DNA of 51,586 nt, taken from contig JAQGOY010000228.1 in the NCBI GenBank assembly GCA_028293375.1, forward strand, positions 1 to 51,586. The letters are read 5' to 3'. This document shows, piece by piece, positions 1,980-42,294 of the stretch (positions are counted from its first letter, which is position 1; each line of letters starts with the position of its first letter). The notes beneath the pieces were generated by a model. It did no database searches, was not told the DNA's origin, and saw only the letters and a program-made list of their open reading frames with translations. This stretch comes from Verrucomicrobiales bacterium (GTDB taxonomy: Bacteria > Verrucomicrobiota > Verrucomicrobiia > Limisphaerales > JAQGOY01). Position numbers and translations under genes: made by a program.

Positions 1980-3233
1980 TTACCGGAAAAGTGCCTGCGG
2001 GGGAGGGGTGATGGGGTTTGCGTTCCTGGATTTGAATTTTCTGTCGTAGAGCTCAGCAAGCCGTTTTCCGATGGTTCTCCACGAGAGTCTTTGTGAAGCG
2101 GTTTCTATGGCGGCTATGGAGAGTCGTTTTCGTAGCGATTCGTCTTTTAGGGCTTCGACCGTTTCGGTGATGAAGGCTTCAGGAGTGTCGGCGAGGAGGA
2201 TATCCTGTTTGTGAATCAGGTCCAAGCCTTGTGCGCCGATGGTGGTGGAAATGACAGGCGTTCCCAGGGCCATCGATTCAACTATTTTTAACCGGGTTCC
2301 ACCACCGATGCGGAGCGGGACGATTTGTAGCCAGGCCTGCCCGTAGTAAGGTCGAACATCGGGGACGCCTCCGGTAACGTGGACGCCCGGTTTGTCACCG
2401 TAAGCTTTGACTTCGGGTATTGGACTTTTACCGACGATGAGGACCTGCAGATTCGGTATCTGTTTCCGGATGCCTTCGTGGATGGCTTCGAAATACCAGC
2501 GAAGAGCGTCGACGTTGGGGTTGTAATCCATCGCGCCGCAGAAAATAAGGCTCGGGTTTTCGGCACGGGCTGTCGGGATTGGAGACTCCCGGAAGTAATC
2601 CAGATCCACACCGTTCACCACCACTTCGATTGGAACTGTTTTGCTGATGTACTTTTGAATGAAGACTTTGTCATCTGGCCCGCAGACGACCTCCATCGCG
2701 GCGCGGGCCGCGACCTTTTTTTCAAACGCAAGAAGCTTGGCATACCCTTCGTAACGCAAAAATCTGGTCTTGAGAGAGAAATTCATGCGCGAATGTTCCG
2801 CCAACTGAAATTGGAGATCGACCCGGCTGCGATCAACGATCATGGGGATGGATGCACGTTTCTTGTTGGTAAAATATTGAGCAAGGACAATATCGCAGAC
2901 ATGAACGGCGTCGTATTTCCCTGCAGTCAGGAGCCGGTCGAGGACAGGTTCCACCTGAGGAAGTGTCCAGTGAGCGACGTTTGGTGGCAAAGGATTCAGG
3001 AGTCGATCCGGAAACATTTTTTGCCAGTCGGGATGTTTGAAGGAGATGGTTTCGACTCTGTTACAAAATTCAGCGAAGACGTGTTTGTGCTCTTCACCTT
3101 CCCCGTTTTCAGTGAGGGCCAGGAGGTCAACTTCATGGACGCCGGCCAATTCCTTCAGAAGATTGAAAGTGCGATGGTAAGTGCCGCGGTCCAGCGGGTA
3201 GGGAAGGTAAGGATAAAAAACGAGAAGTTTCAT
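1980..3233 (-). CDS. Glycosyltransferase family 4 (GT-B), TIGR03087-like sugar transferase
   Basis: A GT-B fold retaining glycosyltransferase of about 417 residues. The N-terminus MKLLVFYPYLPYPLDRG resembles sugar transferases of exopolysaccharide loci. The C-terminal donor-binding half has NPSLIFCGAMDYNPN, then VPLRIGGGTRLKIVESMALGTPVIST with the usual E-x7-E type acceptor/donor motif. It should add a sugar to a lipid-linked glycan on the cytoplasmic face. I prefer the ATG at 3233 over an upstream in-frame codon at 3287, because it gives a canonical N-terminus and lies 4 nt after the stop of the preceding gene, implying co-translation. Donor and acceptor cannot be told from sequence. Confidence 0.9.
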   Translation of the reverse strand: MKLLVFYPYLPYPLDRGTYHRTFNLLKELAGVHEVDLLALTENGEGEEHKHVFAEFCNRVETISFKHPDWQKMFPDRLLNPLPPNVAHWTLPQVEPVLDRLLTAGKYDAVHVCDIVLAQYFTNKKRASIPMIVDRSRVDLQFQLAEHSRMNFSLKTRFLRYEGYAKLLAFEKKVAARAAMEVVCGPDDKVFIQKYISKTVPIEVVVNGVDLDYFRESPIPTARAENPSLIFCGAMDYNPNVDALRWYFEAIHEGIRKQIPNLQVLIVGKSPIPEVKAYGDKPGVHVTGGVPDVRPYYGQAWLQIVPLRIGGGTRLKIVESMALGTPVISTTIGAQGLDLIHKQDILLADTPEAFITETVEALKDESLRKRLSIAAIETASQRLSWRTIGKRLAELYDRKFKSRNANPITPPPQALFR

Positions 3234-3237
3234 ATCG

Positions 3238-4377
3238 TTAATTATAGTGGCTCCAGAGTTGGCGATAGGCATGAACCAGCTCGGCATGGCTGGTGGCGAT
3301 GGTGTTTAATTCCGATTGGATAAAGCGAAGCAATGCCGGGTCATTGATCGATTCAGGTTTCCACAGCAACAACGGCAGGGTGTTTAGGAGCCGTTCCCGG
3401 GGATAGCGTGAGGATTTGTCACTTAACAATGATTTAGGACCAAATTTCCGAAGATTGATCAAACGATTTTTGGTGTCGGCCGTGTCGGGACATTTGTTGA
3501 TGGGAGACAATGCGTATTGTTCGACGTCGGCAAAATGTTGTTCCAGACGAAGATTTTCCAGCCAAAGCCAGACTTGCTGAGACACAGTTTTGAGCTCGGT
3601 TTGTGTTTGTTGAAAATCGCACGCTGCTCCCTCACGCCGGGTTGGATGAAGTTTAAAGTCCACTCCATCGAAGTGAAACGCCTTCACTGATTTCATCCAG
3701 GGAAGTGTGTCCTCCATGGCTTGAAGATATTGGGCCCGAGTGACGCTGCTCCAGTGGTAACGCTGATTGACAGTCAGGACGACATCCCCGAACGCGAGCT
3801 TGGCCTTGCATTGATTGCGACCGACGAAATCCGCATCCTCAGGACTGAAATCTTTTTTCGCCAGGGCCACCTCGGAAAACAAGAGGCCGGAGCAGCGATT
3901 CATCAGGAGACGAATGGCTTCAGCGAGTTTGATGTTCGCGGCAACACGGTGAACATTGGTGCTTTTGAGGATGGTAGGGCTCCCCAACAAAACCTTGTGG
4001 CCCATGACCAGGTCATAAAAGAACATGGTGGTGGGGCCGGTGATAATTTTTTCCAGCGGCAGGATCTTGAACTCCACCTCGATACCGGCTTTTTCCGTGC
4101 AACGATGAGCGATGTCCTGAAGCTGTCTGCCATAACGTTTCTCGTTGAGAAAAGCAGGACCAGCGATGCAGACATAAAATTCCATGTCGTTATAAGGAAG
4201 ATCGCTCGAAGGGGATTTAAGAACACCCCCTTCGCCCCGCCCATAACCTCCACCCAGAATGATGGCTTGCAGGCGAGATCCCGGCACGACAGCGGTGATG
4301 CCTTCGACCACCGCCTCAGAGACCGAGCTGAGGTGAGATTCCAGTTCGTCAGTACCGTCGAGGGTGAATCGATCCAT
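3238..4377 (-). CDS. Hypothetical protein with nucleotidyltransferase-like N-terminal motif
   Basis: 379 residues from the preferred ATG at 4377, which overlaps the previous stop as TAATG, a typical coupling junction; a longer start at 4413 would overlap by 37 nt. I do not recognise a named family. The N-terminal part has IILGGGYGRGEGG followed after about 15 residues by NDMEFYV. This looks like the GG/GS...D-x-E metal-binding pattern of the polymerase-beta nucleotidyltransferase superfamily. The remainder is mixed helical and has no transmembrane segment. It sits between two glycosyltransferase genes, so a nucleotidyl or phospho-transfer role on a glycan precursor is possible but unproven. 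A degenerate or substrate-sensing domain is the alternative. Confidence 0.7.
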   Translation of the reverse strand: MDRFTLDGTDELESHLSSVSEAVVEGITAVVPGSRLQAIILGGGYGRGEGGVLKSPSSDLPYNDMEFYVCIAGPAFLNEKRYGRQLQDIAHRCTEKAGIEVEFKILPLEKIITGPTTMFFYDLVMGHKVLLGSPTILKSTNVHRVAANIKLAEAIRLLMNRCSGLLFSEVALAKKDFSPEDADFVGRNQCKAKLAFGDVVLTVNQRYHWSSVTRAQYLQAMEDTLPWMKSVKAFHFDGVDFKLHPTRREGAACDFQQTQTELKTVSQQVWLWLENLRLEQHFADVEQYALSPINKCPDTADTKNRLINLRKFGPKSLLSDKSSRYPRERLLNTLPLLLWKPESINDPALLRFIQSELNTIATSHAELVHAYRQLWSHYN

Positions 4378-5645
4378 TACCGGTTGTACGGTTGTAGTGG
4401 CACTGGCGCCCATGATTTGAAACTTTCCTTGAGGAAATGATCGGCCTGGTCGAGATAAGCTTTTTCGTTGTAACGGGCATGCACCTCGGTTCGTCCGGTG
4501 TTGGCGATTTGGAATCGAAGTTCAGGATTTTTGTCCAACCGCAGAATTTGACGAGCCAGTTGTTCGGAGCTGCCGGCATTGTAAGTCAAAGCATTCTGAC
4601 CTTCGCGAAATAACTCTTTGCTACCGCCGGTCATCGTCCCAATTACAGGCAACCCGCTAGCCATGGCCTCCAGGGGAGTGATGGCGAATGGCTCCTCCCA
4701 CTCCGAAGTGAAAAGAAGAGCGTCGTGTTCTCGATACAGTGCTGGCATGGCGTCGGGTGAACTGACCGAGGTGAACTTGATGGGCAATTTTCGAGAAGCG
4801 GCGTAGTCGCGCACTTCCTTCTCGTAATCGGCCTCGCCTTTGCCGCAGACGGTTAGTTCACCGGCGAACTTGTCGCGCACCAATTCCATGGCCTTGATGG
4901 CTGTCATGGTGCCTTTATCCTGGGTGATGCGGCCCACAACCAAAAGTCGTTGAAGTGGTTTATCCACCGGTTTCACGGGAGCGTTGAAGCGTTCGATATT
5001 TACCGGGCAATAAGTGATGATCCCTTGAGAGACAGGAAAACCCGCTTCCGCGGTAAAGGTCCGAAGGAACTCACTGCAAAACTGCACATTTCTAAAAACA
5101 AGGTGCTTCACCGGATTGGTTGGTGTGACTTTTTGGCAACGACCCCGAAAACCGCTGACTGTTCTCAGGTTGCGAAGAATCCGTTGCTTGAAACTTGGAT
5201 TGTTGCAATTCCACCAGCGAAGCCATACATCCGCTTTTTCGCATCGAGCGATCCAATGATCGGAGACGTAAAAAGCGGTGGGAATACCCAGTTCCTGGAG
5301 TGTGAGTAGCATCGACTTGGAAAGCCCGCCCATGTTCCAGATATAAACCAGGTCCGGCGACACCTTTTCCAGGACCGAACGCAGGGTGCGATTATTGTAT
5401 TTCTCCAGGCTTTGAAGTTGGTGAATTCCCAGCCATGGGTTTCCATACATCCCGTGAATTTTCAACAAACGGTAGACCGTTTTCTCATTTTCGGGGATGG
5501 GCGACTTGTCCAGCCCGTAATCCGAAGTCAGGACATGCATTTCGTGGCCACGGCCCCGCAGGCCTTCCACCGTATTATGGCAGTTCAGCTCATAGCCACC
5601 GATGAAGAAGGGGGGATAAAGATTACTGAGCGTAAGAATTCTCAT
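4377..5645 (-). CDS. Glycosyltransferase family 4 (GT-B)
   Basis: A 422-residue GT-B glycosyltransferase. It opens with MRILTLSNLYPPFFIGGYE, the glycine-rich loop typical of GT4 enzymes that take nucleotide-sugar donors, and HEMHVLTSDYG follows. The C-terminal donor half has LLVVGRITQDKGT and SEWEEPFAITPLEAMASGLPV, containing the conserved E-x7-E. It is predicted to be cytosolic or peripheral at the inner membrane, extending a lipid-linked oligosaccharide. Its 5' end overlaps the upstream GT2 gene by 23 nt and its stop shares bases with the next start (TAATG). Sugar specificity is not visible. Confidence 0.93.
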   Translation of the reverse strand: MRILTLSNLYPPFFIGGYELNCHNTVEGLRGRGHEMHVLTSDYGLDKSPIPENEKTVYRLLKIHGMYGNPWLGIHQLQSLEKYNNRTLRSVLEKVSPDLVYIWNMGGLSKSMLLTLQELGIPTAFYVSDHWIARCEKADVWLRWWNCNNPSFKQRILRNLRTVSGFRGRCQKVTPTNPVKHLVFRNVQFCSEFLRTFTAEAGFPVSQGIITYCPVNIERFNAPVKPVDKPLQRLLVVGRITQDKGTMTAIKAMELVRDKFAGELTVCGKGEADYEKEVRDYAASRKLPIKFTSVSSPDAMPALYREHDALLFTSEWEEPFAITPLEAMASGLPVIGTMTGGSKELFREGQNALTYNAGSSEQLARQILRLDKNPELRFQIANTGRTEVHARYNEKAYLDQADHFLKESFKSWAPVPLQPYNR

Positions 5646-6516
5646 GATTTAACCCTCGATAATGTTTCCAACCTTCTCGGAATCCCTCGAGTTTTCCCTT
5701 TCGCTGATGCCAGCGTATGCGCGCGGCGTGCGGCATCTCGGCCAGTCGTTTCTCCCGGAGACAGTATTGCAAGTCGTGACGAAGATCGCTGATTACGCCG
5801 AGCGCCACGGTCCGGCCAAAGTTGAAATAGTTGGGGTTTTTCTTCCAGGAAGCAGCAAGGGCTCGGGCGTCGCCAAAGCTTCGTTTGTAGGATTGCTGGG
5901 GCGTGTAATTGTGGGAATGCATGACGACCGATTCCGGCACGTAGACCACGTCATAACCTTGCTGGCGGGCCCAGCGGGTGTATTCATCATCCTCGGCGTA
6001 CTGAAGCTTTTCCAGAAACCCGCGCTTGCTCCAGATATCCTTCCGAAGACCACTGCTGACCATGCTGAAGAAATGATCCCACTTGGTCGAGATGCGGTTT
6101 GGGCCGAAGCATCGATCATAGTCGCAGGCAAATACCGCCTGGCAGTCCGGCCTTGGAATTTGTTGTCCGAAAACGGCAGCGGTGTTCGGGTTAAATAGTT
6201 TTTCCGCCAGGGGACGCAACCAGTTCTTGCCCTGCGGCGTCGCGTCGGCATTCACGAAAATGCCATATTCCGAAGAGGCGACTTCCATGCCCCAATTCAT
6301 CACGCGGCTGGGATTGTATTCCGGCGGAGTTATCTGTTTGAAATGCCGGGGTTTAAAATTCTTGATGAGGTCCACAGAACCATCGGTGGAACCGGAGTCG
6401 ATGACGATCAATTCCCAATTGCTATACTCCTGGTTTTGCAAAGCAGGAAGCGTATCGCGCAATGCCCAGGCTTCATTATAGGAACGCAATATTATGCTGA
6501 GTAATGGATCGCTCAT
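5623..6516 (-). CDS. Glycosyltransferase family 2 (GT-A)
   Basis: 297 residues with a GT-A fold. The N-terminus has LSIILRSYNEAWALRDTL and then ELIVIDSGSTDGS, the nucleotide-binding region of GT2 enzymes. A metal-binding DxD-like element appears as VNADATPQG. The YAEDDEYTRWARQQGYDVVYVP segment matches the usual catalytic ED acidic motif. No transmembrane helices are apparent, so it probably works on the cytoplasmic face on a membrane-linked acceptor. It overlaps the flippase gene by 4 nt (ATGA) and the following GT4 gene by 23 nt. It resembles rhamnosyl/glucosyl transferases in general form, but the sugar is undetermined. Confidence 0.93.
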   Translation of the reverse strand: MSDPLLSIILRSYNEAWALRDTLPALQNQEYSNWELIVIDSGSTDGSVDLIKNFKPRHFKQITPPEYNPSRVMNWGMEVASSEYGIFVNADATPQGKNWLRPLAEKLFNPNTAAVFGQQIPRPDCQAVFACDYDRCFGPNRISTKWDHFFSMVSSGLRKDIWSKRGFLEKLQYAEDDEYTRWARQQGYDVVYVPESVVMHSHNYTPQQSYKRSFGDARALAASWKKNPNYFNFGRTVALGVISDLRHDLQYCLREKRLAEMPHAARIRWHQRKGKLEGFREGWKHYRGLNHENSYAQ

Positions 6517-8123
6517 GCTGTTTTCCCGGCTTTAAAAATTCTGGGAAATTTACGCGCAACTTGAAATCGGTCGGATGTCGTCATGGCATAATTCCAGAGG
6601 CCGATGAAACCAATGAACATGCCGAGAACGCATTGGCCAATCATAATGATCGAACTTTTTCGGTAATCGAGCCATGGGGAATAAAAAGTAAGAAGTAAGT
6701 AAGCCACCAAAGGTAAACAGCCTCGAAGTGTGGGGAACAGGACCTTCCGCAGCATCCCCATCAAGGAAAGCTCTGCCTCTTTTGCCGCCCATGGAAGAAT
6801 GTATCCAAAGCCAAAGACCATGGTGGCGATGAGTGAGCCTAGGGCCACACCAATGACATTGTGAAATTTGACGATCAAAGAAACGCTGAGCACCAGGTTA
6901 AGGAGCGCTTCACCAAGACCCATCCACATCAACTTCCGTTCATGACCGCACATCATAAAAATGCGCTTGGTGACACTCTGGGTAAGTAGAGTTACAAATT
7001 GCCAGGTGAGAAGAATTTCCCCAACCCAGAACGTTTCAAAATAAAAAGTCCTGTCGCGTGATAGGAAGGCAATCATTCCCTGCATGTAAAAAAGACCAAT
7101 CAGAAAAGCAGGAGTGGCGATCATGACGCTGAAACGGGTGCCATCCAGGAGCAGCCTGCGCAATACTTCCTTTTCGCCTTTGGCATGAAGATGAGCGGCA
7201 GCCGGACTAAATGTGTCGGGGAGTTGATTGGTAAAGGTTCCAAATACTTCGCCGACCTTCGCGCCAGTCTCGTAAAGTGCGACCGAAGATACTGCCTGGA
7301 CAATACCGATCACGAGGCGATCAGTCTTGCCGAGAATCATGTTGCTCAAAGTGCTGATGTAAGTGAACACCGAGAAACGAAGCGTTTCCACGATCATCTT
7401 TGGCGAAAAATATTTAGGCAACAACTTGACGTGAGGAAGTTTTTTCAAGGCACAGGCCCCGCAAAGGGCACTGGGAACAATCGCGCTCGCGAGTGAAATG
7501 ATGACGATGGTTCTTAGACCCAGGTGTTGACGAATCGCCACCGTAATAAAAACAAAATTCAAAACGCCAGTTACCGAAAAAATCATGTTCGCCAGGAAGA
7601 TACGCTGCTGACCGATCAGAATCTCCGGAAAAATACCGAGAGGAAAACCGATACCGATGCCGCAGAAGAAAAGCACCATGATTTGCCGAAAGATTTCGCG
7701 GTTTGGCGGGCTGATGTTGAACATGCCAATCAAGGCGTGTGAAAAGCCAAAGGCGATTCCAACGATGATCAGCGCGATGACAACATAGAGATAAAAAATG
7801 GTGCTTAATACCTGGCTAAGTTCCGTCCAGTTTTGGTGAACGGAGAGTTCCGCAACTTTCTTGACCGCAGTAAAACCAAATCCGAAATCGAGAAGAATTC
7901 CGAATCCGAACACACTCCAGAGAAGAGTCCAAAAACCGAATTCCTCAGTGTGAAGGCCTTGCTTCAGGACCCCGAACATAACGACGCCGAGAGCCATGCG
8001 AAGCCCCATGGCGAGGTAGTTGGAGATGGAATTCCTCCACATGTGCCTGGCCATCTCCTCATGGGGAGACTCCATAGGCGACTTATGTACGTCCGGAGCT
8101 GCTGGAGCGGCTGTAACTGGCAT
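6513..8123 (-). CDS. Polysaccharide flippase (Wzx/MATE-like, MOP superfamily)
   Basis: 536 residues with about 12-14 hydrophobic helices. A hydrophilic N-terminal tail of about 30 residues precedes MWRNSISNYLAMGLRM, as in oligosaccharide flippases of the MOP superfamily. The expected role is moving an undecaprenyl-linked repeat unit across the inner membrane. The ATG at 8123 lies 2 nt after the NRPS stop; an alternative start at 8150 would overlap the NRPS gene. The stop overlaps the GT2 start by 4 nt. No recognisable Wzy polymerase gene is seen nearby, so either polymerisation is encoded elsewhere or the product is not a Wzy-type polymer. Confidence 0.88.
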   Translation of the reverse strand: MPVTAAPAAPDVHKSPMESPHEEMARHMWRNSISNYLAMGLRMALGVVMFGVLKQGLHTEEFGFWTLLWSVFGFGILLDFGFGFTAVKKVAELSVHQNWTELSQVLSTIFYLYVVIALIIVGIAFGFSHALIGMFNISPPNREIFRQIMVLFFCGIGIGFPLGIFPEILIGQQRIFLANMIFSVTGVLNFVFITVAIRQHLGLRTIVIISLASAIVPSALCGACALKKLPHVKLLPKYFSPKMIVETLRFSVFTYISTLSNMILGKTDRLVIGIVQAVSSVALYETGAKVGEVFGTFTNQLPDTFSPAAAHLHAKGEKEVLRRLLLDGTRFSVMIATPAFLIGLFYMQGMIAFLSRDRTFYFETFWVGEILLTWQFVTLLTQSVTKRIFMMCGHERKLMWMGLGEALLNLVLSVSLIVKFHNVIGVALGSLIATMVFGFGYILPWAAKEAELSLMGMLRKVLFPTLRGCLPLVAYLLLTFYSPWLDYRKSSIIMIGQCVLGMFIGFIGLWNYAMTTSDRFQVARKFPRIFKAGKTA

Positions 8124-8125
8124 TT

Positions 8126-11100: not shown

Positions 11101-11581
11101 GAGACTGATAGGAAGAGAGCTCCACGTCCAATTCCATGAGCCAGGCCGATACCGATAGGCTGCTTTTTACATCGAGTATCAGGGGCCAAAATAAATCGCT
11201 CGCTGGAATCCCTTCAAACCGGGTGCCGAAAACCACCCGTTCTTCAGTACTGTAAGCGCCCAGCAAAAGAGCCCATGCCCCTAGGTAAACGGTTTCCGGG
11301 CAAACATTGGCTTTGGAAGTGAACTGAAGAAGCAACGACTGAAACTGGGCGTCAGTGCTGGAATAGCGAGTGACGTAGTGGTGATCTTCCCTGGGAGCCT
11401 TCACCGGCCGGACCAGATTGAAAGAAGTTGGCGCGCTAAAATAAGAAAGTTTGGTTTTCCAGAACTCGCGATCGCTGCCAGGATTTTTAGCGGCAGCAAT
11501 TCTGGCAGTTTTCCCAACTTTCAAACGATCGGTTTGAACTGAGGTGGCCATATGACGTCTCTTTAGTTTTCTTGGCCTCAC
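8126..11581 (-). CDS. Single-module non-ribosomal peptide synthetase (partial C - A - PCP - TE)
   Basis: 1151 residues. Residues about 35-250 look like only the C-terminal half of a condensation domain; the HHxxxDG catalytic motif is absent. The adenylation domain (about 280-785) has YTSGSTGKPKG (A3), NQYGPSE (A5), YKAGDLARF (A7), VKIRGYRVELGEIE (A8) and NGKVDRKALP (A10). The carrier domain has LGGDSLQ with pantetheine-accepting Ser835. The thioesterase (about 890-1145) has GGWCYGG, so the nucleophile is Cys965, not Ser, with a late PGDHD as the probable His region. By hand alignment to PheA the pocket reads D-V-Q-F-I-A-Q-V-V, close to the proline-type code. The GTG at 11581 overlaps the previous stop (GTGA); an ATG at 11551 is an alternative. 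The product probably decorates the locus glycan or lipid. Confidence 0.92.
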   Translation of the reverse strand: MRPRKLKRRHMATSVQTDRLKVGKTARIAAAKNPGSDREFWKTKLSYFSAPTSFNLVRPVKAPREDHHYVTRYSSTDAQFQSLLLQFTSKANVCPETVYLGAWALLLGAYSTEERVVFGTRFEGIPASDLFWPLILDVKSSLSVSAWLMELDVELSSYQSQDAASAKDLRQWCEIPNNQPIIESLVEFGPNGDRGFVAGNPQGIKVTVNGASGGLNLEFSGSALDKAAVEALLQQYAWVLRQMVEHPEKNLKDLDMVPPAQRTQILGLFNKTNTNYPPVKNLKTLFEAQVEKTPSTIAVCAPLGNSPLKSLTYYELNERANQLAHFLQKSGVREDVVVGVCLERSVELAIAVLAIIKAGGAYVPFDPSYPKDRLTFMLEDTCAPLLLTQESLIEEIPDTETRLLCLDRDAAQFADAPNTNPVCRTSEDHLAYLIYTSGSTGKPKGVAMRQGPLVNLLFWQFDNWGYTLPARTLQFSSLNFDVSFQEIFSTTCSGGTLVMIPENNRRDSNLLIQFIAEQSIQRIFLPFVALKHLAEAAERNSIYPNQLAEVITAGEQLQVTPQIVQFFTKLKECTLHNQYGPSETHVVTAHDLKGSALYWPPLPSIGKPIANAKIYILNEQKDFVPIGMPGELFIGGDCLARGYLNRQDLTDERFIPDPFSSKPGAKMYKAGDLARFLPNGNLEFLGRIDHQVKIRGYRVELGEIEAVLSKHPAVRESVVVARVVTGGEKQLVAYIVTQNGKTYTIPELRDYLKTKLPVYCVPAAFVKLEKLPLTPNGKVDRKALPEPKPVVEEHDQSIKLPQTPLEMQIQLVFERFLNRRPIGTDISFFELGGDSLQAMKLIVEIERVSGKKLPMGILYQASTIEAISRKIEEVSRPEEWSSLVPLQTLGTKKPLFLIHTTPGDVLGYGNLVYHLGTEQPCYGLQSLGFKDSSLAHTNVPEMARYYIQQIQTVQPHGPYFLGGWCYGGILAVEMAQQLARMGEKTALLALIETPAPSPGYSNIRYALRRFQCLFSMSPLQWKRYVVAKVNYYRGVRLADEMRFKRASLEEIEDPVKVAERNKFLDNLEHIYHTNLNALDGYESHKYAGKIILFNAAIQDPAVIPDPNYGWKSLVKQIERHIVPGDHDTILMEPNVKLLAKQLERCLEEAGK

Positions 11582-12348
11582 GAAACTTTTCTATCGGGGC
11601 TTTTACGAAGGAACGCAAAGGTATCTCCCTCTTCCCGGGCCACTTTGAAGCCAGCGTGGATGAGGGTGGATACGATATCGTAGGTGGCGGCCTGGCCGAG
11701 CACCCCTGGGTGCAGCTCGATGATGATCTTGTCGATGCTGTTCGGAAGCATGCTGAAGTCGATAAACTTTTCGGCTCCTTCAATGTCGATGATTAAAACA
11801 TTCGGAGGACGAGCGGCAAGCTGGAGCAGGGTGGGCAACGGCACGCTCTTGACCTTGATGGTTTTGCTGCGGTCGGCCGAAGCGGCCATGACAACAGAAT
11901 TTTCCCAGAAATCATTGCCTATATCGAGGTCTATCGTGCCTTCCTCCTGGCCAAGGGCGACATTGAGGACATTGGGTGTGACGTGGTTGAGCGCGTAATT
12001 CTTTTTAAGAATATTTACCGTTGCCGGGTTTGCTTCAACGGTGAGATAGTTCTTGATCCCAAGACGCTTCTGGCAATAAAGCCCGATGAAGCCGATGGCC
12101 CCGCCTACTTCAACGACCGAATCTTCGCTGGTCAGGAAATCACGGCACATCTGCTTTTCATGTTCTTCATATCCGACATTTAGAATCCGGTTTCGAATTT
12201 TCAATGGCAGCTCGGTCAGGTCGAGAACGATGCCTTCCAGGGAAGTCTTGTGGACCTTGGGAAGAACATATTTAAAGTAATATTTGATCCAGAAGTCCTG
12301 GTACTTTTGGAACAGGCTTTGTGAAACCGGAAAGGATAGTTTGGTCAT
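11578..12348 (-). CDS. FkbM-family SAM-dependent methyltransferase
   Basis: 256 residues. SAM-binding motif I is seen as VVEVGGAIGFIGLYCQ, followed by LTVEANPATVNILKKN, the conserved FkbM acidic ribose-binding segment. LIIDIEGAEKFIDF matches the FkbM post-motif block. FkbM enzymes usually O-methylate sugars or polyketide hydroxyls, and their presence in glycan operons fits terminal sugar methylation. No membrane segment is seen. It starts 24 nt after the phosphodiesterase stop, one of the few real gaps in this operon, and its own stop overlaps the NRPS start (GTGA). The substrate could be a sugar of the glycan or the NRPS-derived group. Confidence 0.92.
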   Translation of the reverse strand: MTKLSFPVSQSLFQKYQDFWIKYYFKYVLPKVHKTSLEGIVLDLTELPLKIRNRILNVGYEEHEKQMCRDFLTSEDSVVEVGGAIGFIGLYCQKRLGIKNYLTVEANPATVNILKKNYALNHVTPNVLNVALGQEEGTIDLDIGNDFWENSVVMAASADRSKTIKVKSVPLPTLLQLAARPPNVLIIDIEGAEKFIDFSMLPNSIDKIIIELHPGVLGQAATYDIVSTLIHAGFKVAREEGDTFAFLRKSPDRKVS

Positions 12349-12372
12349 AAGTCTTGTTGCGTAAGCTCGGGT

Positions 12373-13569
12373 TTAGGCGCCTGCGGGAGTCAAAACGGTT
12401 TGCTGCTGGCGATTCGAATCTTTCGCCTGGGTGGCTGCCGCTTTCATCAAGTTGCAAATATGAGGAATGTCGGTGATCTCCCCGGGTATCTCCGGTTGAT
12501 TGGTGAACAACGCGGCATAACTTTGGGGATCGTCTGGATGATAGCCGTGCATGGCCGTGATGGGACGCTCGCCCATGTGGCTCGGGACAATCAAAACACC
12601 TTCCTTCATCAGGAAAATGGTCTCACCAAAATACTTGTCATCGAAGTAAGCCTTGAGTTCCTTAAGTTCTTCATCGGGGAGAATTCGACCTTCCGGCACG
12701 CCCTGCAGGACATCGTGAATTTGGACGCGAGCCTCGGAAGTAAAAAACCAGAAGCGCGCCATGGTGGAGTCATAAACCACGGAATAGTCTTTACCCATTT
12801 TCACCGGCAGCTTTTCTATTTTTGATTTGAGGTCGATGTGGACATCGCAATTCGCCATGCCATGGTCGCTGAAAACATAGAGCACCACTTTACGGTAATG
12901 GCCTTGTGCGGCCTTAAGCACTTTGTCGATCCATTCCTCATACATGGCCAGGCGTTCATGGACCAGGGGGGAACGGTTTCCCACATTGTGCAGGAGCCCG
13001 TCCAAACCGGGCCAGTAGGAGAACGAAAAATCTATTTTTTCGGACTGGATTTCGTTGATCAGGTTATCGCGGTTCTGCTCCTCAGTCAGGGCAGGATCGC
13101 TCACGAAATAGGGAATATTGGAACTGACTAGAAAATCAAAAATGTTGTCCCCGCGATTCATGCCCTTCGGTTTCAGCGGGCTTTTTTTCTCGGTGAAATT
13201 GTAGTTCGAGATGTGCTGGAACGGAATGTTATAGAGGTCGAAATACCCTTCAAAATCCAGCGTTTTACGCACCAGTTTCGTCAGAGCGCGGCGGACAATT
13301 CTGCGGCTGGTCAGCGCCTTGGGCAGAAATCGTAAAACGCGGAGATTGCGGAAAGGTGAATTCTCCGGATCATGGACGAAGTAGCACCAATTGCGGTGAT
13401 CCTGTGGCCAGCGCCCGGAAAGGATGGAGGGCACGCAGGTCGAAGAGTAGCCAAACACCGAGCGAAGCTTCTTGCGCTTCGGTGCGGCTTTCTTGAGGAA
13501 ATCGGTATTCTTGATGATTTCCCACCCGCAGGCGTCGATCATGATGCAAAGCGGCAATACATTTTTCAT
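12373..13569 (-). CDS. Alkaline phosphatase superfamily protein (type I phosphodiesterase/nucleotide pyrophosphatase-like)
   Basis: 398 residues with the metal-binding layout of the alkaline phosphatase superfamily. Asp12 lies in CIMIDACGWE. The likely nucleophile is Thr44 in YSSTCVPSILSG, followed by the usual W/H region. Further metal ligands appear as DGLLHNVG, SDHGMANCD and AMHGYHPDD. Relatives cleave phosphodiesters or transfer phospho-groups, and some act as sulfatases. There is no signal peptide, so it is probably cytoplasmic. Its ATG overlaps the stop of the pyrophosphatase gene (ATGA). In this setting it could trim a phosphorylated or nucleotide-linked intermediate; the substrate is not deducible. 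Confidence 0.85.
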   Translation of the reverse strand: MKNVLPLCIMIDACGWEIIKNTDFLKKAAPKRKKLRSVFGYSSTCVPSILSGRWPQDHRNWCYFVHDPENSPFRNLRVLRFLPKALTSRRIVRRALTKLVRKTLDFEGYFDLYNIPFQHISNYNFTEKKSPLKPKGMNRGDNIFDFLVSSNIPYFVSDPALTEEQNRDNLINEIQSEKIDFSFSYWPGLDGLLHNVGNRSPLVHERLAMYEEWIDKVLKAAQGHYRKVVLYVFSDHGMANCDVHIDLKSKIEKLPVKMGKDYSVVYDSTMARFWFFTSEARVQIHDVLQGVPEGRILPDEELKELKAYFDDKYFGETIFLMKEGVLIVPSHMGERPITAMHGYHPDDPQSYAALFTNQPEIPGEITDIPHICNLMKAAATQAKDSNRQQQTVLTPAGA

Positions 13570-15200
13570 GTCTGTGATCTTTCCAACTTATTTAAAATAA
13601 TAGGCAGAAGTTGTTTTTTGCGGGATACGCACCCCTCCCATAGCACTGCCTGGCCGTCCTCACCGAGGATATGGCGCCGTCGGTGTTGTTGGGAGTCGTC
13701 CAGCAGGACAAGGCTTTCCCCTCGAAGGGAGTCGGTAATCATCAAGGCCACAAAATCCCAGTCCGTTTGCTGCCGTTTTAATTTCAGCGCACAGGCAAAT
13801 TCGTTTATTTTCTCCGGAAGGAGCCGGGTGCGGTCCACCGTTTCCACCTGCGCCACACCAAATCGAATTTTGCCGGAACTGAATTCTTTTAAATCCTTGT
13901 TAACCAGCTCGAGAGCTGTTTTGGACAGCGTTTCGTCATTGCGCAACAGCACTTCCAGTCCAAATTCCTGCAACTCCACTTCGGCTTTGGCCGCGAGGAT
14001 TTTTGCCAGTTTGCGATCAATATCGGTCGTCGTCGGAGAAGTCAGGAGTAGAGTATCTGCGAGCATCGCGCCAAGCAGAAGAATGGCCTGGCCTTTGGTG
14101 ACTCGGACTTTGCTTTCCTGGAATTTACAGGCGATGATTGTCGCTGTGCTTCCAAGCGGACGGCAATCCACGCGAATGGGGTCTACGGTCTCCAGGCTGC
14201 CCACGCGGTGATGATCCACGATTTCGAGTATTTGAGCTTCTTCGATTCCACGTGCGGCATGGTTCTGCTCGAAATGATCCACGAGAATAATCTTTTGCTT
14301 TGGCGCATTGATTAATTCCGTCCGCGAAAGTACGCCAACCAGTTCGCCGCCAGGTCCCACCACCGGCAGAGCGTAGGGTTTGTGTGAAACCAGATCCTTG
14401 ACCTCGGCGAGGCTTTGTTCAGGGCTCAATTGCGGAAATTCCCGCGCCATCAGATTCCTGACGGGAATGGCGAGCGAGAGTTTTGAAGTAAGCGAGAGCA
14501 GGGAACCCCGGAACTGGTAAATTCCCATGCCGGAATCTTTTTGATATTCGGCAAAGGAGCACTTCACGCGTTTCGGGGAGCAAATGATCACCGCCGCAGC
14601 ATTGTGTTCGCGGGCCTGGGTGATCGATTCAATATCATCAGTGCAAAGCAGGATATCGCCACCCCGGATATTCTCGGGGGTTAACGAAAGACATCCATCT
14701 GCCGGACGGGCAGCGGGCTTCCAGCATTTTAATCCAAGGCCCCGAACCAGATCGTCCAGCTGGAAGAGAACTCCGAGAAAATTCTCCAGGTTAAAATGAT
14801 AAAAATAGTGACCCATCGGAAGTCGATCGCTTAGAATGCCTTCCAATTTCCCCGAACCGCTCACTACCGGAACAAGGCTCAACTGGAATTCGGTAATCAG
14901 CCGAATGGCGTCACCGAGAGGCGCCTCGATGGGGACGGTTTGGATGGCGCGGCGTGCCACGTCGCCCACTTTGATATTGAGGTCAGGAACAATTGGGGGA
15001 AGCTGGATGCCCGCTTTTTCGAAGAGCCACTCCGTTTGAGGGGAAAAATCGCCAAGGGAAACGCTTTGGTATTTGGTTTTGCGGTCCAAAGATTGCAGTA
15101 GCTGAGCGTATACCACGGCCGATACCACGGAGTCCGTGTCGGGACGCCGGTGGCCGGCAACCAGAACAGGTCGTTCGTGAGTAAAACTGCGTTTCTTCAT
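13566..15200 (-). CDS. ppaC: Family II inorganic pyrophosphatase with CBS and DRTGG insert
   Basis: 544 residues. The Mn/Co-binding motif GHRRPDTDS (H17, D21, D23) opens a DHH domain. The domain is interrupted by an insert of about 240 residues with two CBS repeats (roughly 66-130 and 250-305) flanking a DRTGG domain. The DHH part resumes with LVDHFEQNH, EIVDHHRVG and CRPLGSTATI, and ends in a DHHA2 domain (LADTLLLTSPTTTDID). This is the long, nucleotide-regulated form of family II pyrophosphatase: PPi to two phosphates, with AMP/ADP inhibiting and ATP or Ap4A activating in characterised relatives. It overlaps both neighbours by 4 nt. In this operon it would remove PPi made by the NRPS adenylation domain and by nucleotide-sugar synthesis. 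Confidence 0.93.
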   Translation of the reverse strand: MKKRSFTHERPVLVAGHRRPDTDSVVSAVVYAQLLQSLDRKTKYQSVSLGDFSPQTEWLFEKAGIQLPPIVPDLNIKVGDVARRAIQTVPIEAPLGDAIRLITEFQLSLVPVVSGSGKLEGILSDRLPMGHYFYHFNLENFLGVLFQLDDLVRGLGLKCWKPAARPADGCLSLTPENIRGGDILLCTDDIESITQAREHNAAAVIICSPKRVKCSFAEYQKDSGMGIYQFRGSLLSLTSKLSLAIPVRNLMAREFPQLSPEQSLAEVKDLVSHKPYALPVVGPGGELVGVLSRTELINAPKQKIILVDHFEQNHAARGIEEAQILEIVDHHRVGSLETVDPIRVDCRPLGSTATIIACKFQESKVRVTKGQAILLLGAMLADTLLLTSPTTTDIDRKLAKILAAKAEVELQEFGLEVLLRNDETLSKTALELVNKDLKEFSSGKIRFGVAQVETVDRTRLLPEKINEFACALKLKRQQTDWDFVALMITDSLRGESLVLLDDSQQHRRRHILGEDGQAVLWEGCVSRKKQLLPIILNKLERSQT

Positions 15201-15553
15201 ATCGAGGCTGGCATAAGGCGCCTGACTTCTGAGACGAGTTGAGTCGGACTAAATGGCTTGGTGAGGACAATTTCGTTCTCATTTGACCGCGGCAGCAGCA
15301 TGCCGGGAGGAATCTCTGACATGCGGATCACGGGTATGTGTTTTTGGGTCATGCGAAGAAGTGCAATCACCGGATCGAACAACTCGCGGCTGGAATCATC
15401 CAAAAGCACCATGCTGAACTGATTCAGCTGCACCGCCCTTAAGGCGTCTTCGCCGTTCCGGGCCTGCACCATTTCATACCCGGCTCGCTCCAAATGATGT
15501 TGCAGCAGCCTTAGCATGAACAATTTTGTGTCTAGTACCAGAATTTTGTTCAT
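15197..15553 (-). CDS. Stand-alone response-regulator receiver domain
   Basis: 118 residues, a single CheY-like receiver with no output domain. The phosphoacceptor is Asp52 in MVLLDDSS and the conserved Lys is K99 in VLTKPFSPTQLV. The acidic pocket is reduced: the usual DD pair near the N-terminus reads LDTK with only Asp8. It may still be phosphorylated, or may act as a protein-binding module. It lies between the SpoIIE-type phosphatase gene (4-nt overlap) and the pyrophosphatase gene (4-nt overlap), so it is probably part of the same regulatory switch. No cognate kinase gene is adjacent; the giant hybrid kinase at 24 kb is the nearest. Confidence 0.88.
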   Translation of the reverse strand: MNKILVLDTKLFMLRLLQHHLERAGYEMVQARNGEDALRAVQLNQFSMVLLDDSSRELFDPVIALLRMTQKHIPVIRMSEIPPGMLLPRSNENEIVLTKPFSPTQLVSEVRRLMPASI

Positions 15554-17346
15554 AACTTCTTGTTTTCGTCCATCAATACAATGAATGTTTGATCATCGTA
15601 AAGTGTTCCACCATCTTGAAATTTGTTAAGCTCGAGAACGAGGGATTCCTTTAACTCCTCCGCAGAATTAAAGGACAAGGCGTTTTTTTCCATCCAGTTA
15701 AAGAGTCGGTTTTGTCCAAAGAAATCGTTGGTCGCGTTTTGGGCATCGGTGACACCGTCGGTGTAAAGCAGGACGCGGGAACCCGCAGGGAAGGGCAGGG
15801 TCGCCTCTTCAAAAGTTGTATTGGGAAGTATCCCCAGCGGCAAACCGTCCGGTGCCACCGTTGTCAGGCTGGTCTGGCCGGGGCTCATGATCAGAACCGG
15901 GCAATGGCCTGCCGTGGCTGCGCTCAAGGTCCGCTCAGTCATATTGATTTTCAATACTTCTGCCGTGATGAACATGCCCACGTCCGAAAGCTCATCGAAA
16001 AGCATGGTGTTGATTCGAGTCATGATCGCGCGAGGACTGTTGAGCTCGGTAGTGGCCCGCAACGCGCTTCGAAAGATCGCTGCAAACATCGCTGCCGGAA
16101 TTCCTTTGCCCATCACATCCGCGATGATGGCCAGGACGCAGTTTCCATCCTGGTGGATAACCGTGTAGAAATCGCCCCCCACCTGCCTGGCGCTTTCGCA
16201 ATGGGCGGCCAAACCAAGCCCTGGCAATACGGGCAGTTGTTTCGGCAACAGTGCCCGCTGAATATTCTTTGCGATTTCCAGTTCGTGCGAAGTCAGCCGG
16301 TGACTCATCTGTTCTTCACGGAACCTTGCGTTCACGATTTGAATGGCGAGAAAATCGGCAAAGGTATGGATGACGTTGGCGTGCGCGGCAGTGAAGGACG
16401 AACGGCCCATTTCCTTTCCAACAGTCAAGGTTCCCACCAGCTTACCTCCAAAATAAAAGGGATGCACCAGGCCGATCGAACTTGGTTTGATTTCCTGCCA
16501 GGCCCCCTGATTGGTTTTGGAAAGTTTGGGATCAAACCAAACATCCTGTCGCGACAGGGCAGCGCTGACTTCGGCATGTGATCCTTGCTCCGGAACATTT
16601 TCCAGGGAAAGGGAATCCAGTTTCAGCGAAGGTTCAGAAGCTGTAAAAACAATGAGTCGTTCTTCTTCCTTGGGCACAACTCGCAAAACGAACCAGTCCG
16701 AAGAAGTAATCTGGAGCAGATCAGAGCACAGGCAGCGGGCAAATTCGGCAAGGTCATCGGTTTTTCCAAGGTCTGTGCCGCAACGAAAAATGGCCGAGAG
16801 ACTTTCGTAACACGAACTTAACTCCTCCGTCATGTCATGAATGATTTGCTCATTCTCGGCGAGACGATCCTTGTAGGCCTCGAGCGTCGGTTCGGAGGAA
16901 TAATTGTCCGGAAGCACCGCTCCGCTTCCGTACTTTTTGAGAATGAGTGTGTTGCCTGCGGCCGCTTTTTCGTAGCTCACATCGTCCATGATCGAACGCA
17001 TCAGGAAAATTCCGCGACCGCTTTCGCTTTCGTGTTCCGGCAGTCGAGATTGCAGCGGAAGGGTGAAACCGGGTGTGTGATCCTCAATTCTCAGTTCCAG
17101 CGTATTGTCGTCCGTAATGGCGTGCATGACGATGGGTTTGGAACGCCCTGCCTCTTCGCAATAGAGAACGGCGTTGTTGCAACCCTCTACCATGGCCAGT
17201 TCGCAGGCCATGATGTCCTCTTCCGTCGTGCCGTTTTGTTTGAGAAAACGGCAAAGCTGCGAGACTGCATCTCGAACCATTTCCAGTTGGCAGGGCAGGG
17301 TTACCGAGAAACGTCTTGAAACCGTGGTTGCGGCTGACAAAAGCAT
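15550..17346 (-). CDS. RsbW-like HATPase - GAF - SpoIIE/RsbU phosphatase fusion
   Basis: 598 residues in three parts. Residues about 10-140 are an anti-sigma-type HATPase (ELAMVEGCNNAVLYC as N-box, RIEDHTPGF as G1, ESGRGIFLMRSIMDDVSYE as G2). Residues about 190-350 are a GAF-like domain. Residues about 365-595 are a PP2C-type SpoIIE phosphatase with metal-binding VGGDFY, IADVMGKGIPAAM, LLYTDGVTDAQN and DDQTFIVL. Kinase and phosphatase of a partner switch are thus in one polypeptide, opposing each other on a STAS-domain antagonist such as the product of the gene just upstream. The start overlaps that gene's stop (TAATG). The GAF ligand is unknown and no sigma-factor gene is in view, so the final target is open. 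Confidence 0.93.
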   Translation of the reverse strand: MLLSAATTVSRRFSVTLPCQLEMVRDAVSQLCRFLKQNGTTEEDIMACELAMVEGCNNAVLYCEEAGRSKPIVMHAITDDNTLELRIEDHTPGFTLPLQSRLPEHESESGRGIFLMRSIMDDVSYEKAAAGNTLILKKYGSGAVLPDNYSSEPTLEAYKDRLAENEQIIHDMTEELSSCYESLSAIFRCGTDLGKTDDLAEFARCLCSDLLQITSSDWFVLRVVPKEEERLIVFTASEPSLKLDSLSLENVPEQGSHAEVSAALSRQDVWFDPKLSKTNQGAWQEIKPSSIGLVHPFYFGGKLVGTLTVGKEMGRSSFTAAHANVIHTFADFLAIQIVNARFREEQMSHRLTSHELEIAKNIQRALLPKQLPVLPGLGLAAHCESARQVGGDFYTVIHQDGNCVLAIIADVMGKGIPAAMFAAIFRSALRATTELNSPRAIMTRINTMLFDELSDVGMFITAEVLKINMTERTLSAATAGHCPVLIMSPGQTSLTTVAPDGLPLGILPNTTFEEATLPFPAGSRVLLYTDGVTDAQNATNDFFGQNRLFNWMEKNALSFNSAEELKESLVLELNKFQDGGTLYDDQTFIVLMDENKKL

Positions 17347-17648
17347 TAGCGTTTAACAATTTCGAATATCCGATGCATGCGAGTGAGTTCCAGGATCTGT
17401 TGGACAGGGGGGGTTGGATTGACAAGCCGCACCATGCCGTTGCGGCTGCAGGTGGTTTTGTGAAGGCTGATCAGGGCGCCAAGGCCACAACTGTCGACGA
17501 ACATGGTTTGAGAAAGGTCTATCTCTATGATTTTGTGAGCCTCGGATAGGGAGGCCCTTACCTGATCCCGAAAGGAATTGGAGTTTGCTGCCGCTAATTC
17601 CTTGATGCCTGTGATGCTAAGGGTTTCACCGTTGGTTTGAGCTTTCAT
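17346..17648 (-). CDS. STAS-domain anti-sigma factor antagonist (RsbV/SpoIIAA-like)
   Basis: 100 residues forming one STAS domain. The motif MFVDSCGLGALISLHK carries the phosphorylatable Ser53 after Asp52, as in SpoIIAA/RsbV. It should be phosphorylated by an RsbW-type kinase and dephosphorylated by a SpoIIE/RsbU phosphatase; both activities appear to be in the next gene product. It is the first gene of the long operon, about 60 nt after a candidate promoter, so the switch is probably made together with the glycan/NRPS enzymes. Confidence 0.93.
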   Translation of the reverse strand: MKAQTNGETLSITGIKELAAANSNSFRDQVRASLSEAHKIIEIDLSQTMFVDSCGLGALISLHKTTCSRNGMVRLVNPTPPVQQILELTRMHRIFEIVKR

Positions 17649-17842: not shown

Positions 17843-17873
17843 AAAGGGGTTTTGCCAGCAGCAAAACCCCTTT
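17843..17873 (-). terminator. Hairpin terminator after the 21887-17897 unit
   Basis: A perfect 13-bp inverted repeat (17843-17855 with 17861-17873) encloses a 5-nt loop, 24 nt past the stop of the minus-strand gene ending at 17897. The stem ends in AAA/TTT, so on the minus strand the descending arm runs into TTT CATTT. This is a short U-rich tail, so rho-independent termination is likely, though perhaps incomplete. Confidence 0.7.
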
Positions 17874-19196: not shown

Positions 19197-19922
19197 TTAA
19201 TAAGCTCCTTTACTAAACAGAACCGCAGGCACTGTCTTCAACAGGATGCGCACATCGCCCAAAAACGATTGGCTTTCGATATACTGCACATCCAATAGAA
19301 CCTGTCCTGGAAAATCGATTTCGCTTCTTCCGCCGATCTGCCAAAGACAGGTGATTCCTGGCTTCGCAAGCAATCTGCGTCTGTCTTGCAAAGTATACAA
19401 TGCGACTTCACGAGGTACTGGGGGTCGGGGACCCACTAATGACATATCCCCTTTTAACACGTTGAAGAATTGAGGAAATTCATCAAGCGACAATTTTCTC
19501 AGCCATTTCCCCACTTTAGTGATGCGGGGATCGTCCTTCATTTTAAAGGTGATGCCCTCGGTGTGTTGATTTTTGGCAAGCAATTCTTTCATTTTAGCTT
19601 CGGCATCCACGCACATGGAACGGAACTTAAACATTTTAAATTCTTTCCCATCCTTGCCCACGCGGCGTTGCGCAAAGATCACCGGCCCGCCGTCCTCCAG
19701 TTTCACCAGTAGCGCCAGAAGGATAAAAATCGGCGAAAAAACGAGGATAAACATCAAGCTGGCCAGCACGTCAAAAAACCGTTTCACCGCAAGCGTCGCT
19801 GCCAGCATCCACTGCCAGGAATGGCGCTTCCAGGCGGAATAAGCTCTCAGGCGCATTCGCCCTGTCTTGGTTCGCATTAACTCCAGTCTTTCCACTGTCG
19901 GCGCTGTTGAATGGTTCACCAT
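19197..19922 (-). CDS. Monotopic phosphoglycosyl transferase (initiating sugar transferase)
   Basis: 241 residues. A hydrophobic re-entrant segment (VKRFFDVLASLMFILVFSP, IFILLALLVKLED) is followed by GGPVIFAQRRVGKDG, KMFKFRSM and LSLDEFPQFFNVLKGDM with VGPRPPVP. The Asp-Glu in LSLDEFPQ is the catalytic dyad of the PglC/WcaJ-type family. It would transfer a sugar-1-phosphate from a UDP-sugar to undecaprenyl phosphate, the first membrane step of glycan assembly. There is only one membrane segment, so it is the small form rather than the five-helix WbaP type. It lies 7 nt after the uridine-kinase-like gene and 4 nt before the fusion gene, within one operon. Confidence 0.93.
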   Translation of the reverse strand: MVNHSTAPTVERLELMRTKTGRMRLRAYSAWKRHSWQWMLAATLAVKRFFDVLASLMFILVFSPIFILLALLVKLEDGGPVIFAQRRVGKDGKEFKMFKFRSMCVDAEAKMKELLAKNQHTEGITFKMKDDPRITKVGKWLRKLSLDEFPQFFNVLKGDMSLVGPRPPVPREVALYTLQDRRRLLAKPGITCLWQIGGRSEIDFPGQVLLDVQYIESQSFLGDVRILLKTVPAVLFSKGAY

Positions 19923-21887: not shown

Positions 21888-22050
21888 CCTGAACAGCATG
21901 GAGGCAATGGACTTCTCAGCCAAACGTGGAATGCCTTATAATGAGGTAGACACAAAGCTGAGAAATCGTGGCGATAGTTGCCCGATTGCTGAGCAACATC
22001 CGTGTTTCTAACCTGCCTTCAAGGTCATGGCACCTTCATGGGATTATAAT

Positions 22051-41373: not shown

Positions 41374-41378
41374 TCGTC

Positions 41379-42275: not shown

Positions 42276-42294
42276 AACACCGGAGCCACAGGAA

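Follow-up and report, generated by a model that had tools for sequence, protein, structure and literature searches.

A partner switch made of a STAS protein, a dual kinase/phosphatase and a stand-alone receiver is embedded in a conserved Verrucomicrobiota polysaccharide locus, probably of the Wzx/Wzy type, whose central part is the region described here, and we consider it rather probable, from gene content and comparison with relatives, that this switch gates polysaccharide assembly after translation. RsbV/RsbW/RsbU-type switches work by serine phosphorylation, and their output is usually a sigma factor. The annotated ORFs of the window (the whole stretch of 51,586 nucleotides that was analysed) show no sigma domain, apart from GerE-type helix-turn-helix cross-hits in two LuxR regulators, and the initial annotation was right in seeing no sigma gene. 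As a polysaccharide locus it is conserved yet unannotated, in a phylum that is abundant but poorly studied.

The switch genes and the surrounding locus

The features of the locus are listed in Table 1. The phospho-acceptor of the STAS protein is Ser53, located within VDSCGLG, which has the DS[x]G pattern of the phosphorylatable serine in RsbV-type proteins. The dual protein, for which we will use the term KinPhos, matches HATPase_c_2 (1e-21), GAF_2 (6e-6) and SpoIIE (2e-43), confirming that one polypeptide holds both the kinase-like and the phosphatase domain. The GAF domain lies between the two, and in one relative (G008) kinase and phosphatase occur as split versions. The N- and G-boxes of the RsbW-type HATPase are intact and the metal-binding Asp residues of the PP2C/SpoIIE phosphatase are present. 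The kinase residues E54, N58, D89, G93, G110 and G112 and the phosphatase residues D392, D410, D530, D584 and D585 are found in nearly all of 51 sequences. The receiver (REC), encoded by a separate gene, is a borderline member of its family, scoring 30.1 bits where the cut-off is 30.2; it retains D52 while the second acidic residue is missing in this clade, and most relatives in a 44-row alignment are canonical.

Table 1. Features of the locus in the window, with the match or observation on which each assignment is based
Feature	Position	Strand	Basis
GT4 glycosyltransferase	1980..3287	minus	PF13692
Conserved locus protein, nucleotidyltransferase-like	3238..4413	minus	motif alone (GGGYGRGE..NDMEF)
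GT4 glycosyltransferase	4377..5645	minus	PF00534
GT2 glycosyltransferase, conserved in locus	5623..6516	minus	PF00535; 65-72% identity in relatives
Wzx-type flippase	6513..8150	minus	PF13440; NF041503 weak
NRPS, partial C-A-PCP-TE, lineage-specific	8126..11581	minus	Pfam
FkbM-type methyltransferase, accessory	11578..12348	minus	PF05050
PDE, NPP-fold phosphodiesterase, candidate STAS target	12373..13569	minus	PF01663 3e-12
PPase, DHH-CBS2-DHHA2 family II (Mn-dependent) inorganic pyrophosphatase	13566..15200	minus	NF011443
REC, stand-alone receiver	15197..15553	minus	PF00072, borderline
KinPhos, RsbW-type kinase + GAF + SpoIIE/PP2C-type phosphatase	15550..17346	minus	Pfam
STAS protein, 100 aa	17346..17648	minus	PF01740 5e-17
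14-bp hairpin between LbH and STAS	17843..17873	minus	-20.4 kcal/mol, without T-run
LbH, nucleotidyltransferase-like + hexapeptide + sugar-transferase-like domain	17897..19192	minus	
Priming polyprenyl-phosphate sugar transferase	19197..19922	minus	PF02397 1e-68
UridK, uridine-kinase-like protein of conserved locus	19930..20538	minus	PF00485 5e-30
GT4a, first glycosyltransferase of conserved locus	20673..21923	minus	conserved order

All genes from STAS through the last GT4 lie on the minus strand, where the initial annotation had placed them. The 1-4-nt overlaps it described are exact from STAS to PDE (STAS/KinPhos -1, KinPhos/REC -4, REC/PPase -4 and PPase/PDE -4 nt), but past PDE the spacing is looser, from +24 to -50 nt (PDE/FkbM +24, FkbM/NRPS -4, NRPS/flippase -25, flippase/GT2 -4, GT2/GT4 -23, GT4/nucleotidyltransferase-like -37 and nucleotidyltransferase-like/GT4 -50 nt). 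Between 13.5 and 15.6 kb, where a promoter and terminator had been named beforehand as evidence against a joint operon, the minus strand carries no promoter-like site, and the terminator scan gave only two overlapping weak terminator-like stems at ~14.7 kb, within the PPase gene; the whole-region counts of these scans are at chance level, hence they are informative only on the lack of a split in this interval. Upstream, LbH and STAS are 248 nt apart in this genome, with a 14-bp hairpin in the gap, and STAS may well begin its own transcript here because of it. In many relatives the LbH/STAS junction is only a few nucleotides long or overlapping. In close relatives the gap is too diverged in the alignment to read a conserved promoter.

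A gene-neighbourhood survey of the relatives, as the initial annotation had suggested, revealed that the order GT4a-UridK-priming transferase-LbH-STAS-KinPhos-REC-(PPase)-PDE-flippase-GTs is conserved across many genera and several orders; two isolates, Rubritalea marina and Haloferula luteola, share it. The switch, previously described as leading the operon, is therefore embedded in a polysaccharide locus that starts upstream with GT4a, UridK, the priming transferase and LbH. KinPhos and PDE are found together in 48 of the 293 genomes of the order, most of the genomes compared being MAGs, and in 33 of these the two genes lie on the same strand at most 4.3 kb apart. The Wzx/Wzy-locus parts present in the window are the priming polyprenyl sugar transferase, the flippase and the glycosyltransferases; no polymerase (Wzy) gene was found in the window, and a Wzy-like gene is present in the relatives' loci. 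The priming transferase conserves D147/E148 in 34 of 34 sequences. In the sugar-transferase-like domain of LbH the catalytic DE pair is replaced by RR, and by sequence the protein is a pseudo-enzyme.

In the glycan/NRPS product proposed earlier, the NRPS is a lineage-specific addition carried by only a few relatives (L049, L052, L136/L205). For this reason it is unlikely to be what the switch acts on across the locus, and it was rejected both as the core product and as the core target. The PPase has the DHH and DHHA2 domains, the CBS insert and the conserved active-site motifs of a CBS-PPase (355 bits against a cut-off of 335 for NF011443). It is recurrent, located between REC and PDE in L117-L121, L124 and L138 and, in L343, downstream of PDE. 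Most loci lack it, however, and it was rejected as a constant partner. Pfam and NCBIfam searches with the protein at 3238-4413 gave no match.

PDE, STAS fusions and the conservation of Ser53

The candidate STAS target PDE is 60-71% identical across the order. Its predicted structure (AF2 pLDDT 85.5) gave Foldseek matches to ENPP5/6 and Xac NPP with E values of 1e-15 to 3e-13. The two-metal ligand set D12, D190, H194, D235, H236 and H341 is present in 37 of 37 orthologues. The expected nucleophile position, Thr44 if this is the correct one, is alanine in 11 of the 37, while S42, S43 and C45 are invariant. The fold and metal-ligand set are those of Xanthomonas Xac NPP (PDB 2gsn), although the two proteins share only 13% identity and PDE has no evident signal peptide, beginning directly at its first catalytic strand.

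About 20 loci without KinPhos retain STAS directly upstream of PDE. In the complete genome G414 the two genes have 4 nt in common; in place of a full-length KinPhos orthologue, this genome has only a 30%-identical SpoIIE-family protein. STAS also occurs fused, in single open frames, to PDE (L237:9683-11203, with a Ser-less STAS), to LbH (L229:5088-6623; Rubritalea marina carries LbH-STAS) and to REC (L204, L240, L209), each of these types being seen in one to three genomes. A further fusion is a WecG-type glycosyltransferase with two STAS domains, present in this genome at L161:6644-8161; this fusion and PDE co-occur in 58 genomes, out of totals of 65 and 70. Large extensions of the reading frame that precede STAS in L065, L223, L225, L231 and L235 were rejected as fusions, since they carry no homologous domain and are probably spurious frames. 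Since STAS is sometimes fused to sugar-polymer enzymes, it probably acts directly on such enzymes. STAS-KinPhos-REC cassettes are also found away from any PDE (L050, L053, L054, L059, L147-L156), and therefore some target may not be PDE.

Ser53 is retained in 79 of 79 STAS copies adjoining KinPhos, which argues that phosphorylation matters where KinPhos adjoins, and it is missing in 8 of 21 copies without adjacent KinPhos (Fisher 1e-6, with kinship only partly corrected). The replacements are Gly, Ala or Cys, plus Tyr in G414, and never Asp or Glu. In the WecG-STAS fusion both serines are intact in 24 of 26 genomes with KinPhos compared to 8 of 15 without it (p=0.006). On the PDE tree the independent events are few, with Ser53 changing 5 times and adjacency to the kinase 9 times, and a pair test on supported branches, which has low power, never contradicts the link between Ser53 and the kinase. 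An evolutionary test is at hand in Ser53, which varies solely in copies that lack the adjacent kinase.

A possible mechanism and its alternatives

In the mechanism that we favor, a sensor histidine kinase or phosphorelay would alter the state of the small REC, which would in turn tip KinPhos between its RsbW-like kinase and SpoIIE-like phosphatase activities. KinPhos would then add or remove phosphate at Ser53 of STAS and probably also at the matching serines of the STAS-tailed WecG/TagA-type glycosyltransferase, encoded elsewhere in the genome. Unphosphorylated STAS would be the active form and would bind glycan-assembly proteins of the locus, switching repeat-unit synthesis; the likeliest partners are PDE and/or the pseudo-sugar-transferase LbH, neighbour of the priming enzyme. 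We infer both the direction of this control and the substrate of PDE. A more specific version is put forward tentatively, in which the proteins of lipid-linked glycan assembly would themselves be the direct targets. STAS modules, whether free or fused, would in their unphosphorylated form bind PDE, LbH and the WecG-type second-sugar transferase, and phosphorylation of all of them by KinPhos would toggle repeat-unit synthesis without a change in transcription. The earlier suggestion that the switch may have its target in an operon enzyme, and not in a sigma factor, gains comparative support from the STAS-PDE pairing without kinase, the fusions, the loss of Ser53 where the kinase is missing and the rarity of sigma-like genes near the loci, in counts that are only partly corrected for phylogeny, while the binding and control themselves are predicted.

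It is unlikely that STAS controls a sigma factor or other regulator encoded elsewhere, with the locus as its main regulon. Canonical RsbV/W/U logic would favor such an output in trans, as would the presence in this genome of at least 39 sigma-region-2 matches and of another STAS/HATPase/SpoIIE set of canonical appearance, encoded on contig C129, and the still unknown downstream effect of SypA (PMC8256260). However, a local profile search found sigma-like ORFs in only 3 distinct loci, and a sigma factor as locus member was rejected as rare; the clear divergent case, L052/L167, is a group of opposite-strand genes that in a single genome separate LbH from STAS. In addition, STAS stays beside or fused to PDE once KinPhos is gone, which would be needless for an anti-anti-sigma factor without RsbW. 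Several lineages retain STAS although both KinPhos and Ser53 are missing, and the STAS-PDE fusion of L237 likewise lacks the serine. These cases could instead point to STAS as a structural subunit or scaffold of a glycan complex, with phosphorylation by KinPhos a minor trim dropped by many lineages. The absolute conservation of Ser53 beside KinPhos makes this decidedly improbable.

Control of a diguanylate cyclase, with c-di-GMP then acting on polysaccharide synthesis, is known for HsbA-HsbD, BgrV-BgrR and SiaC-SiaD, and direct binding has been shown for SiaC (PMC8457831). In the present case such an output is very improbable, as the annotated ORFs of the window contain no GGDEF domain and no cyclase is among the conserved partners, which are PDE, LbH and WecG. 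The favored mechanism shares with SiaABCD and HsbA/BgrV a STAS or STAS-like protein whose target is an enzyme and not a sigma factor, but the enzymes in those systems are diguanylate cyclases, whereas the candidates here are glycan-assembly proteins (PMC8457831).

Comparison with known polysaccharide-linked switches

A partner switch without a sigma factor is not as unusual as first supposed, since such switches are already known in polysaccharide loci, namely Vibrio SypA/SypE and Nostoc HmpUVW; the targets of SypA and of HmpV are unknown (PMC8256260, PMC10120452). What is new here are named candidate targets and natural fusions for a polysaccharide-locus STAS, and the cultured carriers Rubritalea marina DSM 17716 and Haloferula luteola make the target question directly testable. 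A literature search found nothing linking the STAS domain with polysaccharide in Verrucomicrobia, or CpsF with the STAS domain.

The syp locus of Vibrio fischeri resembles the present one in combining a STAS protein with a dual RsbW-type kinase/PP2C phosphatase in a polysaccharide locus, with receiver input and no sigma factor shown as output, and unphosphorylated SypA (S56A) is the active form (PMC4517449, PMC10120452). In SypE the receiver is located mid-protein, whereas here it is encoded separately and the domain between kinase and phosphatase is a GAF. The Verrucomicrobiota locus, from a different phylum, adds PDE, the pseudo-transferase LbH, the WecG-STAS fusion and natural STAS fusions. 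HmpU/HmpV/HmpW of Nostoc punctiforme, as cited in PMC8256260, is likewise a polysaccharide-linked partner switch in which the target of unphosphorylated HmpV is unknown, and its kinase and phosphatase are separate proteins, while here they form one protein except in the split versions of G008. Also cited there is Anabaena all4160, a STAS fused to a glycosyltransferase needed for envelope polysaccharide, which is similar to WecG-STAS; its STAS is N-terminal (PMC8256260), whereas here there are two STAS domains, both C-terminal, and the enzyme that carries them is of WecG/TagA type and has a link to a kinase/phosphatase.

Gene order and conservation of the locus

The minus strand of the window carries twelve genes from 17648 to 1980. 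The initial annotation described the switch genes as joined to the biosynthetic genes by 1–4-nt overlaps. These hold from the STAS gene to the phosphodiesterase gene PDE (1, 4, 4, and 4 nt) but not at the later junctions, where neighbouring genes overlap by as much as 50 nt or leave 24 nt between them. A scan of 15.6–13.5 kb for a promoter and terminator splitting the regulators from the enzymes found none. In the source genome (4.1 Mb, 281 contigs, 75.6% complete), LbH (a nucleotidyltransferase-like, hexapeptide, and sugar-transferase-like protein) and STAS are separated by 248 nt containing a 14-bp hairpin, so here the switch genes may be transcribed from a start of their own.

Features of the window; genes 1–12 lie within 17648-1980
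Feature	Coordinates	Strand	Assignment	Source
1	17346-17648	-	STAS	Pfam
2		-	KinPhos, HATPase_c_2-GAF-SpoIIE	Pfam
3		-	receiver REC	Pfam
4		-	pyrophosphatase (PPase), DHH-CBS-DHHA2	Pfam
5	12373-13569	-	PDE, type I phosphodiesterase/nucleotide pyrophosphatase	Pfam
6		-	FkbM	Pfam
7		-	NRPS	Pfam
8		-	flippase	Pfam
9		-	GT2	Pfam
10		-	GT4	Pfam
11		-	nucleotidyltransferase-like, unannotated
12		-	GT4	Pfam
Upstream genes	21923-17897	-	GT4a, UridK, priming sugar transferase, LbH (17897-19192)	common conserved locus
Hybrid histidine kinase	24040-31875	+	2611 aa; ~16 HAMP repeats, GAF, HisKA/HATPase, three receivers
Response regulators	31958-32614, 32791-33468		LuxR-type
Cluster	40372-50274	+	MoxR-DUF58-VWA-type

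Among 293 genomes of the order, the kinase/phosphatase protein KinPhos (E<=1e-60) is present in 73, PDE (E<=1e-40) in 65, and both in 48. Most genomes in the whole comparison are MAGs. In 33 of these 48 the two genes share a strand and are no more than 4.3 kb apart, and in 14 they are on separate contigs. The genes are typically arranged as sensor histidine kinase, GT4a (the first glycosyltransferase), UridK (uridine-kinase-like), priming transferase, LbH, STAS, KinPhos, REC, (PPase), PDE, flippase, GT2, GT4, NTase-like, and GT4, and a WecG-type gene often comes next; the NRPS is restricted to a few close relatives. A PDE-profile scan of genome contigs yielded 127 relatives. The best 80 carry Verrucomicrobiota-type titles, except for three labelled simply 'bacterium'; among these 80 are the isolates Rubritalea marina DSM 17716 and Haloferula luteola.

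Other classes of Verrucomicrobiota hold more distant PDE homologues (~40–46% identity; L306, L314, L316, L318, L323), which are directly followed by a response-regulator-like gene (220–235 aa). In the window, the hybrid histidine kinase, divergent from the glycan locus and followed by the two LuxR-type regulators, is a possible sensor for that locus. The MoxR-DUF58-VWA-type cluster is ordinary for Verrucomicrobiota.

STAS and the glycan proteins

In ~20 loci without KinPhos, STAS directly precedes PDE. The complete genome G414 has overlapping LbH-STAS-PDE genes, and its closest KinPhos match is a SpoIIE-family protein of 30% identity without the kinase half; in G171 and G128, STAS is beside PDE and KinPhos is encoded elsewhere. 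Single open frames fuse STAS(3-92)-PDE(107-494) in L237, LbH(4-406)-STAS(413-510) in Rubritalea marina (L229), and STAS-REC in L204, L240, and L209, each type occurring in one to three genomes. More widespread is a WecG/TagA-family glycosyltransferase ending in two STAS domains, which the source genome also encodes (L161:6644-8161, minus strand, contig C228). In several relatives it lies in the PDE locus or right after STAS-KinPhos-REC: L147, L148, L150, L151, L168, L183, L186, L190, and L191. In counts uncorrected for phylogeny, WecG-STAS (70 genomes) co-occurs with PDE (65) in 58 genomes and with KinPhos in 53. The adjacency to PDE without KinPhos, the natural fusions, and WecG-STAS argue that STAS belongs with glycan proteins. 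The neighbours of the source-genome WecG-STAS gene are a GT4, a methyltransferase, and one further ORF.

The PDE model has the NPP fold (AlphaFold2 mean pLDDT 85.5, 18-row alignment), with ENPP6, ENPP5, and a Xanthomonas NPP as top Foldseek matches. PDE is likely cytoplasmic, since the protein begins directly at the first catalytic strand. Its metal ligands are invariant (37/37 orthologues), yet Thr44, a candidate nucleophile, is Ala in 11 of the 37. The adjoining priming transferase keeps its catalytic DE pair (34/34), while nearly all LbH orthologues have RR instead in their sugar-transferase-like domain, which makes LbH a likely pseudo-enzyme partner.

Predicted acceptor serine and kinase

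Almost all of 51 KinPhos proteins retain kinase residues E54, N58, D89, G93, G110, and G112 and phosphatase residues D392, D410, D530, D584, and D585. In G008 (L048; C121:47278-47673) the halves are separate genes for a 147-aa HATPase and a 285-aa SpoIIE protein, which supports a functional split. REC is canonical in most relatives, and its acidic pocket is partly lost in the clade of the source genome.

Ser53, the predicted phospho-acceptor of STAS, is conserved in 79/79 non-redundant copies adjoining KinPhos and absent in 8 of 21 copies with no KinPhos beside them (Fisher 1e-6); omitting one truncated WecG fusion with Ser kept from the 21 leaves the picture unchanged. The lost serine is replaced by Gly, Ala, or Cys and in no case by Asp or Glu, and the G414 STAS has Tyr. 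On the PDE tree, kinase adjacency changes at least 9 times and Ser53 at least 5 times; independent pairs drawn from supported branches do not contradict the link in any instance but are too few to reach significance. Both WecG-fusion serines are present in 24/26 genomes with KinPhos versus 8/15 without (p=0.006, uncorrected for phylogeny), and three KinPhos-less genomes have lost the STAS tail wholly. Read plainly, this means that KinPhos probably acts on Ser53 and the WecG-fusion serines, and that unphosphorylated STAS would be the form still useful without KinPhos.

Proposed output of the switch and related systems

The best reading of these sequences is a partner switch gating polysaccharide assembly post-translationally. 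A sensor kinase would signal to REC, which would set the KinPhos kinase/phosphatase balance and thereby the phosphorylation state of Ser53; this state would govern binding of PDE and/or LbH, the WecG fusion being a second, covalent output. The gene anatomy, its conservation, the fusions, and the kinase-serine link come from the sequence comparison itself, and from these we infer the binding, the direction of control, the PDE substrate, and the REC-KinPhos step. Alternatively, a sigma factor encoded in trans may be the output; none is present in the window, as initially annotated. A sigma profile derived from 20 genes in the compared genomes and run on 143 locus records, some duplicated, found sigma-like ORFs in only 3 distinct loci (4 records). 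The nearest (L052/L167) sits between LbH and STAS and is encoded on the opposite strand. This scarcity speaks against a sigma output. In one genome (G062), four opposite-strand genes, one sigma-like, occupy L052:5732-8509 between LbH and STAS.

Partner switches of this general kind are already known. The nearest is SypA/SypE of Vibrio fischeri, which likewise places STAS and a dual kinase/phosphatase in a polysaccharide locus; SypA is active when unphosphorylated and its target is unknown (PMC8256260, PMC10120452, PMC4517449). HmpUVW of Nostoc is also similar to the Verrucomicrobiota switch, and all4160 of Anabaena is a STAS-glycosyltransferase (PMC8256260). SiaC, HsbA, and BgrV are STAS-like proteins acting on enzymes, namely diguanylate cyclases (PMC8457831). 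What is new is the locus in Verrucomicrobiota with its domain layout, together with the evidence linking STAS to particular glycan proteins.

STAS-KinPhos(-REC) cassettes have also been found away from any PDE locus (L147-L156, L050, L053, L054, L056, L059); a WecG-STAS gene is next in four, and the neighbours of the rest are varied. A second STAS copy stands in tandem before KinPhos in L061, L064, L067, L117, L120, L121, L135, L149, and L155, mostly with DSE/DSD instead of DS[S/C], and represents a second STAS type.
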